Positions 23,194-43,679 of a stretch of DNA of 64,000 bases are shown here, in pieces (position 1 is the stretch's first letter; every line of letters starts with the position of its first letter). The stretch spans positions 1 to 64,000 of the forward strand of contig NZ_MPDK01000012.1 in assembly GCF_003144315.1 (NCBI RefSeq), in the 5' to 3' direction. The notes beneath the pieces are model-generated. The model was not told the origin of the DNA and made no database searches. It worked only from the letters and a program-made list of their open reading frames with translations. The DNA is from Sulfoacidibacillus thermotolerans. Lineage in GTDB: Bacteria > Bacillota > Bacilli > Alicyclobacillales > SLC66. The translations under genes and the position numbers were made by a program.

Positions 23194-24246
23194 TTACTCA
23201 CTGTCCTGATGCGCTTTTTTAAACCCCACACGGTTTTTCCCTTCTCGCTTGACCTGCAATAACACTTGATCAGCCATTTGGAACAATTCTGAACCAATCT
23301 CTCCTTCTGCAACCCCTATACTGGCTCGCAATACAATTTCGCGATCCAGTTCTGGCAATGTCACTTTTTGCTGAACAAGCTCACGATGAAGCCGCAGAAT
23401 GAATTCGTAAGCTTGGTCCAAATTGGAATTGGGAAGAACTAAGACAAATTCATCTCCACCAAAGCGAACGATGACATCATCCATGCGACTTGAATTGCAC
23501 AAGCGTCTCCCTACTTCTGTTAGGATGTAATCTCCAGCCAGATGCCCGTAAGTATCATTAATCAACTTAAAATCATCGAGATCAATCACAGCCAAAGTCC
23601 CAAACTGCCTTTCATTTTTCCGACTCGCCAACCAATCACGAAATCCACGGCGATTCATTAATCCCGTAAGGACATCGTGATCACGCTCATGCGCGATGCG
23701 CGCGCGTACATTGCGTTCAAAGGAATATAGAAAAAGGAGTGCACCCAGTAAACTCGTTTGGTATAAATCAACAAGAGCATCATTTGACTGGAACAGAATC
23801 CACAGGAGCAATAATCCATCCATCCATAAAACGCATTTTTTTACAAGAAAGAAGGCTACAGCAATTCCAGCAACAAGAAGAACCACTACTAGATTCACAA
23901 GTTCTAGTGAAGATAAGGTCACTAAAATAAGAAAAGAACCGAAAAACAGGTAGGATAAAAAGATCGTGAGACGCGGAAGTAATTCCTTACGATGTACATG
24001 CAAAATACCTATATAAATCATAACGTATGCATATAAGCTAACGGGAACAAGAAAACGGTTCCAAAGATAGAGCCCTAAAGCAGGAAAGACTACCTGGAAC
24101 ATAAACCACATTCCCTTGGGACAACGCCAGAATCGAAATTCCTCTTTCACACTCGCGATCATTTCCCAAAATCCAGTGATCCAGGCAGCAATAAAAAGCA
24201 CATACAAGGTCATCTGTAGCCATGGAACGGTCAACTTAGATTCCAA
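23194..24246 (-). CDS. Membrane-bound diguanylate cyclase (GGDEF)
   Basis: About 350 residues. Residues 1-175 hold about six membrane helices with no recognised sensor domain. The GGDEF domain follows: DHDVLTGLMNRRGF, VIDLDDFKLINDTYGHLAGD and the active site VRFGGDEFVLV. RMDD lies five residues before GGDEF, which is the canonical inhibitory I-site (RxxD), so product inhibition is expected. It makes c-di-GMP from two GTP. It lies 49 bases after the EAL gene on the same strand, pairing synthesis and degradation. TTG 24246 is very close to the GGGGG site, so a start a few codons later is possible. Confidence 0.92.
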   Translation of the reverse strand: MESKLTVPWLQMTLYVLFIAAWITGFWEMIASVKEEFRFWRCPKGMWFMFQVVFPALGLYLWNRFLVPVSLYAYVMIYIGILHVHRKELLPRLTIFLSYLFFGSFLILVTLSSLELVNLVVVLLVAGIAVAFFLVKKCVLWMDGLLLLWILFQSNDALVDLYQTSLLGALLFLYSFERNVRARIAHERDHDVLTGLMNRRGFRDWLASRKNERQFGTLAVIDLDDFKLINDTYGHLAGDYILTEVGRRLCNSSRMDDVIVRFGGDEFVLVLPNSNLDQAYEFILRLHRELVQQKVTLPELDREIVLRASIGVAEGEIGSELFQMADQVLLQVKREGKNRVGFKKAHQDSE

Positions 24247-24295: not shown

Positions 24296-25257
24296 CTAAA
24301 GGTCCCCATTAAAAGCATGAAACGCCAAAAGATTCAAGTCTAGCATCTGACTTTTTTTTAAAATCTCCTCTTTCTTTGTGCTCCTTTGTCGAGAGAGCAA
24401 AAATAATTCGTGACGCTGCAATGCAATCGTACTTTGCAGCCACGGCATCTGCCGCAACGTCATCGGGAGACCAAAATAAAACCCTTGACTATACCGAATG
24501 CCTAGTTGTTCAATATAGTGCAGGTCTTCCTCATGTTCAATGCCCTCCACAATGACGCGATCTTGCCAAGGAAGTTGTTGCAAAGCCTCATCAAGCATAC
24601 GTTGTTTGTGTTGAGAAACCGAAATCCCCTGGATCATTTTGCGATCTAGTTTTACATAAGCGGGCGTAAAGGCATTCCACTCGTCCATCCCCATTTCTTG
24701 TAGATTGACATCGTCCAGTGCAACCCGAATCCCATGCGCCTCAAGTTCTCGCAAAATCGGGGCTAAAACGCGCAAATCGTAAGAAATATACTCAATAATT
24801 TCAATGACAATTTGTTGTGCAGCACATCCGTATTCTTTCAAAAGTTGGAGTAAGGAAGGTATAAATTTTTTCTCTAAAAGAGTGGGCGGCATCACATTTA
24901 TAAACAGGGTTGCGCGTGCTAACGGAGATTCTTGAATTGTCCCCACTGCAGTGCGTAAAGCGAGCAAATCGACCTCCAGATGACGATGTTGCATACCCGC
25001 AGATTGAAAAAACCGTTCTGGAGCAAGCACGTGCCCCCCAAGATGAGGCCTGCTTAACGCCTCATACCCTATGACAGTAAGACGCTGATGGTCAACAATC
25101 GGTTGATACATCGTAAATAAACTTCGTTCATTTAATACCCAGGATAAAGAGGGGTCTGCTTCTATGTAATTTAATGGGGTTATTGGTATTATTACCCCCC
25201 CCCCCCCTGGTTGGGGTTTAATTCCTTATATGTTTTTTTATCCCTTTTTGTTTTCAT
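24296..25257 (-). CDS. EAL c-di-GMP phosphodiesterase with poly-G tract in the coding region (out of frame as sequenced)
   Basis: The EAL domain is complete and its catalytic residues are intact: YEALSRP, FINV, VIEIIEY, ALDDVN, YVKLDRK, VEGIE, SQGFYFG. The obvious open frame begins at ATG 25111 inside the domain's first strand (MYQPIVDH). The true start appears to be ATG 25257, 7-8 bases after GAGGAGA, encoding MKTKRDKKTYKELNPNQ and then Gly codons of a G13 tract (25195-25207). With 13 G the frame hits TAA right after the tract; with 14 (or 11) G it continues as VIIPITPLNYIEADPSLSWV into the EAL domain. A paralogue at 42457-43420 has the same architecture. In the sequenced state only internal initiation would give protein. 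Confidence 0.85.
25195..25207 (-). repeat. Homopolymeric G13 tract inside the EAL gene
   Basis: Thirteen consecutive C on the plus strand (G on the coding strand), 17 codons after the predicted start. Tracts of this length are prone to slippage in replication. The gene is in frame only with 3k+2 G residues (11 or 14). Confidence 0.9.
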
Positions 25258-25323: not shown

Positions 25324-25352
25324 ATTATCTCTAACTTTTTCGCGTCTTTCAA
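25324..25352 (-). promoter_or_regulatory. Sigma-A-like promoter of the first EAL gene
   Basis: Minus strand TTGAAA, 17-base spacer, GATAAT. Predicted start about 25317, giving a leader of about 60 bases before ATG 25257. It overlaps the gap after the glycosyltransferase gene. No riboswitch was recognised in this leader. Confidence 0.6.
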
Positions 25353-42057: not shown

Positions 42058-42438
42058 TCACCTCCAGTAGCGCATAATACTTTTAATTTCTTGACATAGT
42101 TCATAAGCTTGAAAAGGCTTAGTCACAAAACCTGCAGCTCCAGCTTGAATGGCCTCCATCACCAAATCCTTTTGTCCAATTGCTGAAATCATGACCACAA
42201 GTGCCTCTTGATGCTGAGTTTTTAACTCTTTTAGCGCTGAAACTCCGTCCTGCTTAGGCATTGTAATATCCATTGTTACTAGATCCGGACCACAAGTTTC
42301 ATACAGTTGAAGCACTTGTGTCCCATCTGATGCCTCTCCTACCACTTCCCAACCACAAGAAGTTACGACCTGCCGTATGACACCTCGCATAAAAAGGGAA
42401 TCGTCGACAATCATGATCCGCAAGGGCCATCCCCCCAT
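42058..42438 (-). CDS. CheY-like single-domain response regulator
   Basis: 126 residues, a receiver domain with no output. Acidic pair in IMIVDDSLFMR, phospho-acceptor Asp in VTMDITMPKQDG, Thr/Ser in VVMISAIGQ, and Lys in FVTKPFQ. The DITMPxxDGV and KPF features are those of CheY/Spo0F-type proteins. It would be phosphorylated by CheA and interact with the flagellar switch or a partner. ATG 42438 is 8 bases after AGGGGAG. It lies 18 bases after the EAL gene, thus in an operon under the c-di-GMP riboswitch. Confidence 0.9.
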   Translation of the reverse strand: MGGWPLRIMIVDDSLFMRGVIRQVVTSCGWEVVGEASDGTQVLQLYETCGPDLVTMDITMPKQDGVSALKELKTQHQEALVVMISAIGQKDLVMEAIQAGAAGFVTKPFQAYELCQEIKSIMRYWR

Positions 42439-42456: not shown

Positions 42457-43420
42457 TTAAAGATCACCTTTAAATACATGGTATGAAAGTAAAAGGAGAT
42501 CAAGCGACTTCCCCATCGCAACGACCTGTGCATCAGAAAACGGTCTGTCCCTATGCATAACCATGCTGTGCAACCCCTCTTTTTGCAATTCAATTTGAGC
42601 TAATAACCATGGCGTTTCAGACATTTTCAAAGGTTTACTCCAATAAAATCCCTGACTTAAATGCACTCCAAGCTCGCGAAGAAGATGTAAGTCTTCCCAT
42701 TCTTCAACTCCTTCGGCGACAATTTTCGTTGATTCTGGGATGACTTTAAGTAACCTCTCTACTTGTTTCTGTTGTTGAATCGAACGTGCAAGTCCCTGTA
42801 TCATCGATTTATCGATCTTCACATACTCTGGATGTATCCTGCCCACTTTATCGAGCAGATCTGGTAAATCAGCATCTTCCTGAAGATCGTCGAGAGCAAA
42901 ATACACACCTTGTGACCGCAGCCTGTCGATGGCAGATACTATTTCTTTTGTACAATAAGGAATATACTCAACGAGCTCAATGACAAGTTCCATAGATAGC
43001 TGACGAAAGCGCCCAGCAATCCGTTCTAAAAAGTGGACAAAGCGCGCATCCAATAAATTAGTTGGGATGACATTAATAAATAACGTTTTACAAGACAAAG
43101 AATCATATTGAAAATGGGCAATTGCTTGTTCAAATGCCAAACGATCCGCTGCAGCTTGCTGATTGCAACGAGCTGCACTTTTAAAAAAAATATCAGGGGG
43201 GAAAAACCGCTGATTGAGATAGGGTCGACTTAAGGCTTCATGTGCAATCACTTGCCCGCGGCGATGATCGACAATCGGTTGGTATAATGTATAGAGGGAC
43301 TTCTTTTTTAATACTTCTGAAACCCACCGCTTTTGCAATATTACATTATTTGGTTTTATAGGGTGATTATACCCCCCCCCCCCCCGAGTTGGGATAATTT
43401 AACATATAATGCGTCTGCAT
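42457..43420 (-). CDS. EAL c-di-GMP phosphodiesterase with poly-G tract in the coding region (out of frame as sequenced)
   Basis: Paralogue of the EAL gene at 24296-25257, with intact catalytic motifs: HEALSRP, LFINVIP, VIELVEY, ALDDLQED, YVKIDKS, AEGVE, SQGFYWS. The plain open frame begins at TTG 43338. The better start is ATG 43420, 7 bases after AGAGGG, encoding MQTHYMLNYPNS and then Gly codons of a G14 tract (43372-43385). With 14 G the frame ends at GTA-TAA just after the tract; with 13 (or 16) G it reads YNHPIKPNNVILQKRWVSEV into the EAL domain. The translated flanks on both sides of the tract align with those of the first EAL gene. A c-di-GMP riboswitch precedes it. Confidence 0.85.
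43372..43385 (-). repeat. Homopolymeric G14 tract inside the second EAL gene
   Basis: Fourteen consecutive C on the plus strand. The tract follows an Asn-Ser pair, as the other tract follows Asn-Gln, and the downstream PIKP aligns with PITP. Frame is restored with 3k+1 G residues (13 or 16). Confidence 0.9.
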
Positions 43421-43442
43421 ACACATTCCCTCTCCCTGAATA

Positions 43443-43478
43443 GAATAGAAAAGCAACCTTAATTTCGCTAAGGTTGCC
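43443..43478 (-). terminator. Riboswitch-linked intrinsic terminator
   Basis: GGCAACCTTA-GCGAAAT-TAAGGTTGC followed by TTTTCTATTCT on the minus strand, between the aptamer and ATG 43420. Its 5' arm GGCAACC is complementary to GGGTTGCC of the aptamer's closing stem, so aptamer and terminator arms can compete. Confidence 0.88.
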
Positions 43479-43490
43479 AAAAGTAAATAC

Positions 43491-43572
43491 AAGCGGCAAC
43501 CCGGCTGTCATAGGCTTCGCTGCCCTTAGACCCGTGGCTTTGCGCCCTAACGTTTCCGTTAGTTTGCCTTGA
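43491..43572 (-). ncRNA. Cyclic-di-GMP-I (GEMM) riboswitch aptamer
   Basis: Minus strand begins AAGGCAAAC, then CTAACG-GAAA-CGTTAG (stem capped by a GNRA tetraloop), GGGCGCAAAGCC (the conserved GCAAAGCC core), GGGTCTAAGG with later CCTATGAC (tetraloop receptor, CUAAG/UAUG) and closes with GCCGGGTTGCCG. Every conserved block of the GEMM-I consensus is present in order. It controls the EAL gene and the downstream cheY-like and yvyF-like genes. Confidence 0.94.
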
Positions 43573-43679
43573 AACACTCGATATATGTCGCTGCTTAAGA
43601 AGAATACTTTTATTTTCCGTCAATCTTCGACATTTTTCAAGTTATTTTTTGCTTTATTCATGTAAAATCAAGCTAAGTG

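Follow-up and report, generated by a model that had tools for sequence, protein, structure and literature searches.

Two EAL genes with intragenic poly-G tracts

The window, a 64,000-nucleotide stretch of the Sulfoacidibacillus thermotolerans genome, carries two stand-alone EAL genes in which a short leader and the EAL body are joined by a long run of G; all of its features described here lie on the minus strand. In gene 1, the leader codons begin at ATG 25257 (MKTKRDKKTYKELNPN...; 25208–25257), the tract of 13 G occupies 25195–25207 and the body extends over 24296–25194 (Pfam EAL, E = 8.2e-41). In gene 2, the leader codons from ATG 43426 (MCMQTHYMLNYPNS; 43386–43426), which are preceded by the Shine-Dalgarno sequence AGGGAG, run into a tract of 14 G (43372–43385) and then into a body at 42457–43371 (Pfam EAL, E = 2e-39, with the domain at approximately 42631–43326; fold match to EAL phosphodiesterases), and the two proteins end in the same C-terminal tail. 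Directly 3′ of gene 1 is a GGDEF (diguanylate cyclase) gene (23194–24246; Pfam GGDEF, E = 5.4e-35), and directly 3′ of gene 2 is a gene for a CheY-like response regulator (42058–42438; Pfam Response_reg, E = 4.1e-28). A sigma-70-like promoter of gene 1, TTGAAA-17-GATAAT at 25324–25352, matches at 10 of 12 positions, with 0.4 such sites expected. The candidate for gene 2, TTGAAA-17-GAAAAT at 43612–43640, is weak and only suggestive, as 1.2 such sites are expected by chance. A sequence-only reading had drawn attention to the tracts; the neighbouring GGDEF and CheY-like genes were absent from it, as were the riboswitch, terminator and Spo0E-like tail described below.

Gene 2 reads ATG TGT ATG CAG ... 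AAC TCG, followed by the remainder of the G14 and TAT AAT CAC CCT. The earlier reading had placed 14 G after ATG 43420 and 12 codons, and re-reading of the sequence gave the same coordinates, counts and frames; a second in-frame ATG lies at 43426 (M-C-M...), two codons before ATG 43420. As assembled, the EAL body of gene 2 is offset by one base from the frame of the only start with good support, and the frame from either ATG ends at MCMQTHYMLNYPNSGGGGV. Translation of gene 2 at each tract length from 10 to 17 G gave an open frame of 321–323 amino acids at 10, 13 and 16 G, in agreement with the proposal that 13 G would restore the frame, and a stop within 18–23 codons at the remaining lengths. 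The body of gene 1 is likewise out of frame as assembled with 13 G; it is open at 11, 14 and 17 G, and other lengths in the same range lead to a stop within 20–43 codons. Gene 1 thus needs one base more (14 G) and gene 2 one fewer (13 G), as had been stated. Every OFF length truncates the product upstream of the EAL domain.

The ATGs of both genes have strong Shine-Dalgarno pairing (−9.8 kcal/mol for gene 1 and −9.6 to −11.1 kcal/mol for gene 2). The in-frame candidate starts 3′ of the tracts are without a Shine-Dalgarno sequence (+0.8 kcal/mol for TTG 43338 and −1.5 kcal/mol for ATG 25111), and for this reason OFF tract lengths should yield hardly any EAL protein, or none.

The two bodies are 38% identical in an alignment that spans from the tract to the C terminus, and the tracts stand at the same aligned position. 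Their flanks align without a gap, as claimed, and the distance to YQPIVDH is indeed equal in the two genes, at 29 residues rather than the 32 first counted. That the tract lies inside coding sequence is borne out by conservation on both sides, of the leader in the ATG frame (ELNPNQ / MLNYPNS / ENNPFS) and, in the shifted frame, of the EAL body.

The tracts exceed chance and recur in relatives

Apart from a contaminant contig, the tracts of gene 1 and gene 2 are the only G or C runs of at least nine bases in the 2.87 Mb genome, a draft of 135 contigs, so that G counts and ON/OFF states are those of a draft consensus. With independent bases, 0.017 runs of at least 13 would be expected genome-wide, yet both runs fall in the same alignment column of the two paralogues, and a chance origin is therefore excluded. 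Codon choice is an unlikely source, since GGG makes up 25% of glycine codons in the window and four GGG in both genes would arise from it with a probability of 1.5e-5. The other long run, 12 G at the end of contig C88 (L008:1-1511), was set aside as part of a contaminant Escherichia phage (Nonagvirus) and not of the host genome; this 3.5 kb contig shares up to 94% identity with Nonagvirus-group phages of Escherichia. The best-matching phage is without a 12-G run at the spot that matches the contig end, which may be a sequencing or assembly artefact.

In a second species of the genus (MAG WH4.bin32, JAKACV010000043; G002), we found an orthologue of gene 1 with 53–54% identity and the same GGDEF gene downstream. 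This orthologue starts at a contig end, where the sequence degenerates into a run of A and G-rich DNA that includes G14; its tract length is not countable as the contig breaks inside the tract, and the distance from the tract to QPI is 30 codons, as in the window genes. A candidate for its 5′ half on another contig was rejected, as the glycosyltransferase neighbour lies elsewhere and not at a contig end. A G10 run in contig C27 of the same genome (L108:1291-1300) lies inside a phage-like structural gene unrelated to the EAL tract genes and is possibly another variable tract.

A tblastn search of plasmids identified a full-length homologue on plasmid pAACI02 of Alicyclobacillus acidocaldarius DSM 446 (NC_013207). 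It reads MGKKPLENNPFS, then G21, then YKYPLNPND...YQPIVDH, with QPI 30 codons past the tract; G21 is out of frame and 19 or 22 G would be needed. The ATG before the tract has a Shine-Dalgarno pairing of −12.7 kcal/mol and the annotated GTG start has none, and G21 is the sole G or C run longer than 8 in the plasmid. Sanger and 454 reads were used to finish this genome, with a stated error rate of less than 1 in 100,000 (PMC3035248). The codon position of the tract is thus kept while its length differs (13, 14 and 21 G, read from one assembly per species). The tract exists in independently sequenced genomes, although in every one of these the exact counts are uncertain.

A third related EAL gene, present in all three genomes of the genus (C46, G001 C6 and G002 C19), has a short N-terminal extension and no tract. 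This tract-free paralogue shows that the tract glycines are dispensable for the fold; in the predicted structure of gene 2, residues 1–14, counted from GGGG, are disordered. No tract gene was found in the third species of the genus (G001), and no gene 2 orthologue in the sister genomes, among which relatives of its upstream neighbour occur only in G001. A family-wide search of 18 genomes at E ≤ 1e-30 gave matches only in the three genomes of the genus. Besides the second-species MAG, a scan of genome contigs with peptide patterns, which would miss the Alicyclobacillus gene, returned only distant EAL proteins, and a scan of viral contigs returned no relative of the tract genes.

Predicted products of the tract genes

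The bodies are under purifying selection: whichever two of the four tract genes are compared, the third codon position varies most, and approximately 300 codons are free of stops. The catalytic residues E, N, E, D, D, K, E and Q are kept in all four, and the predicted structure resembles the EAL phosphodiesterases YahA and BifA. Loop 6 departs from the canonical DDFGxGYS in the window genes (DDL-QEDAD and DDV-NLQEM) and is near-canonical in the A. acidocaldarius homologue (DDVGTGSSTL). Because of the degenerate loop 6 in the window genes, we grade the products as likely, rather than certain, c-di-GMP phosphodiesterases.

The last 45–50 residues are predicted to form a helical hairpin that resembles Spo0E-like phosphatases (in gene 2 at 42460–42606, with a sub-threshold profile match and two predicted helices). 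The window tails, for which direct controls are weak, score 14.2 and 15.0 bits against the Spo0E-like aspartyl phosphatase profile PF09388, which has a curated cut-off of 23 bits; the tail of the A. acidocaldarius homologue, with which the window proteins align through the tail, scores 28.0 bits, above the cut-off. The tail is a lead towards a possible link with sporulation. Elsewhere, Alicyclobacillus curvatus plasmid CP071185 (L141:2771-5929) carries a related EAL domain fused to FapA, with no poly-G tract, a c-di-GMP-I riboswitch before the gene and a response regulator after it, and pAACI02 has separate FapA genes 3′ of its tract gene.

A c-di-GMP riboswitch precedes gene 2

The leader of gene 2 contains a c-di-GMP-I riboswitch aptamer (RF01051) at 43492–43578, with an Rfam score of 83.4 bits (E = 6e-15; gathering score 35), and a scan detected an intrinsic terminator hairpin 3′ of it at 43452–43478. 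In folding calculations, the 5′ arm of the terminator, GGCAACC, can alternatively pair with GGUUGCC of the aptamer to form an antiterminator; the bases GGUU are common to the aptamer and the antiterminator, which makes the two folds mutually exclusive. Without ligand, the calculations favour the antiterminator by 5.0–6.6 kcal/mol as long as the terminator is incomplete. The riboswitch is predicted to be an OFF switch, because ligand would hold the aptamer together and leave the terminator free to form. The A. acidocaldarius tract gene has an RF01051 aptamer of its own (71.4 bits), likewise with a terminator, and folding of its leader gave the pairing GGCUGCC/GGCAGCU as the counterpart of GGUUGCC/GGCAACC in gene 2, a change that preserves complementarity and so supports the antiterminator. 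We found no RF01051 match upstream of gene 1, of the second-species orthologue (whose leader lies outside the contig) or of the third paralogue.

Other c-di-GMP-I riboswitches of the genus (L120:489-572, L122:604-688 and L123:1000-2400) precede Ser/Thr- or repeat-rich, apparently secreted proteins or long EAL proteins of approximately 750 amino acids. Contig C20 of G001 (L125:623-3752) has a riboswitch, a long EAL protein and a CheY-like regulator in the same order as around gene 2; its EAL gene is a different one and is tract-free. In contig C73 of G002 (L122:1570-2560), short tandem repeats adjoin a riboswitch-controlled gene for a repeat-rich protein.

Slipped-strand switching as the probable explanation

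The most probable interpretation, which we hold with good though not complete confidence, is slipped-strand phase variation of putative c-di-GMP phosphodiesterases, of which gene 2 would also be gated by a riboswitch. Slipped-strand mispairing at replication would alter the number of Gs, and a change of one base would bring a stand-alone EAL protein into the frame of its only good start or take it out again, so that clone-mates would differ heritably and reversibly in c-di-GMP breakdown. The features expected of repeat-type phase-variable genes are present: a long, pure repeat within coding sequence and beyond chance, at which a change of one unit toggles the full-length frame. Judged by these features, both tracts appear to work as contingency loci, with variation in length from cell to cell presumed. 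Switching is the best reading since a second species and pAACI02 have the tract at an identical codon distance, and it would explain the position, length, purity and conservation of the tract. The two genes are predicted to switch independently, as had been suggested, because their tracts are separate. MutS and MutL are present in the genome and may slow slippage, perhaps to a rate below that known from Campylobacter.

In gene 2, binding of c-di-GMP to the riboswitch would leave the terminator free and add a second gate. High c-di-GMP would turn gene 2 off and low c-di-GMP would leave it on, a positive feedback that could act as a latch, but only in cells in which the gene 2 tract is in frame. 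Effects on motility, biofilm or sporulation may follow. More tentatively, and with greater doubt than for switching itself, these genes may represent a conserved gene family in acidophilic spore-formers that combines c-di-GMP breakdown and a Spo0E-type phosphatase in one polypeptide. Copies of the gene 2 type would be doubly switched, by a heritable poly-G frame and by a positive-feedback riboswitch, and clones would split into lineages able and lineages unable to latch into a state of low c-di-GMP and delayed sporulation.

The earlier reading had itself raised assembly error as a rival. An error-made tract is strongly disfavoured because the tract recurs in the second species and in pAACI02, but wrong exact lengths may still apply, and the tracts could be real with true lengths of 14 G in gene 1 and 13 G in gene 2, in frame and stable. 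The genome is indeed a draft, sequencing and PCR length errors rise with repeat number (PMC4965091), and the 12-G end of the phage contig may be such an artefact. We nevertheless consider this improbable: a miscount leaves unexplained why a slippage-prone tract is kept across several genes and two genera when synonymous glycine codons could replace it, and the A. acidocaldarius tract, in a genome finished with Sanger and 454 reads, is likewise out of frame. Decay of both genes into pseudogenes, frameshifted at mutable runs, would fit their out-of-frame state as assembled, but is already contradicted by the 300 or so stop-free codons, the predominance of third-position substitutions, the kept catalytic residues and the presence of the same tract in an orthologue and a homologue, and we regard it as extremely improbable.

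Long homopolymers can make RNA polymerase slip, and recoding at the G run, by transcriptional slippage or by ribosomal frameshifting, could instead provide a fixed full-length fraction in every cell. Recoding would tolerate the out-of-frame state that the assemblies show for each of the three genes with a countable tract; however, as two-thirds of lengths are OFF by chance, three of three is unremarkable. The required shifts also differ (+1 in gene 1, −1 in gene 2 and 21 versus 19 or 22 G in A. acidocaldarius), and lengths from 13 to 21 better fit a drifting, mutable tract than a tuned site, which makes recoding quite improbable. What the tract switches is a separate matter. The product could be a c-di-GMP-binding effector that signals via partners or the Spo0E-like tail rather than an active phosphodiesterase, as the GxGYS part of loop 6 is missing from both window genes and from their relatives in the genus, and the tract-free paralogue in contig C19 of G002 has lost a catalytic Glu. 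Given that the four tract genes retain each of the eight catalytic positions examined and that the Alicyclobacillus member has a near-canonical loop, we think an effector unlikely but a serious alternative. Slipped-strand switching of a putative phosphodiesterase remains our preferred reading.

Relation to known systems

Known cases of simple-repeat phase variation mainly concern surface structures and restriction systems in pathogens, and c-di-GMP is a second messenger that decides whether a cell swims or adopts a sessile life. In the open-access literature, we found no example of a c-di-GMP enzyme switched by a repeat tract. If our interpretation is true, repeat switching acts on c-di-GMP in paired genes of environmental acidophiles and in more than one genus, and it raises the testable question of whether a single gene combines layers of genetic bet-hedging and second-messenger feedback. 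Genes of this kind can escape notice when automated annotation places the start after the tract, as with the annotated GTG in pAACI02.

By effect, the closest known case is that of Clostridioides difficile pdcB and pdcC, heritable ON/OFF phosphodiesterases that set c-di-GMP and diversify the population (PMC9286219, PMC11868660). They too are a phosphodiesterase gene pair in a Gram-positive spore-former, but they switch through an invertible DNA element upstream (promoter-bearing in pdcB), whereas the window genes have a homopolymer in the coding sequence. We looked for a switch of the pdcB type and found no inverted repeats of at least 12 bases flanking the window genes. A c-di-GMP phosphodiesterase gene of the Escherichia coli sfa operon undergoes phase variation, as is proposed here, but this variation is epigenetic and concerns a fimbrial operon with no repeat tract (reviewed in PMC11868660).

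By mechanism, the window genes resemble those of Campylobacter jejuni in which the length of an intragenic poly-G tract sets the reading frame (PMC4965091), with switching at about 2–3 × 10^-2 in cj1426 (PMC8437040). The C. jejuni genes mostly concern surface structures, belong to another phylum and have analysed tracts of mostly 8–12 G, in contrast to the 13, 14 and 21 G found here in second-messenger genes alongside MutS and MutL. Within the Bacillota, Bacillus subtilis swrA and Listeria inlA have 5′ poly-A tracts at which a reversible frameshift leads to a very short peptide (PMC2831843). The window genes share with them a homopolymer near the 5′ end, but the poly-A tracts are short, the functions differ and there is no riboswitch. 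Class I c-di-GMP riboswitches repress in C. difficile (PMC9286219), and repression is likewise predicted for the gene 2 leader, which has a clear c-di-GMP-I (GEMM-I) riboswitch with a terminator; compared with other riboswitches of this class, that of gene 2 has as its target a putative phosphodiesterase that would also be frame-switched.
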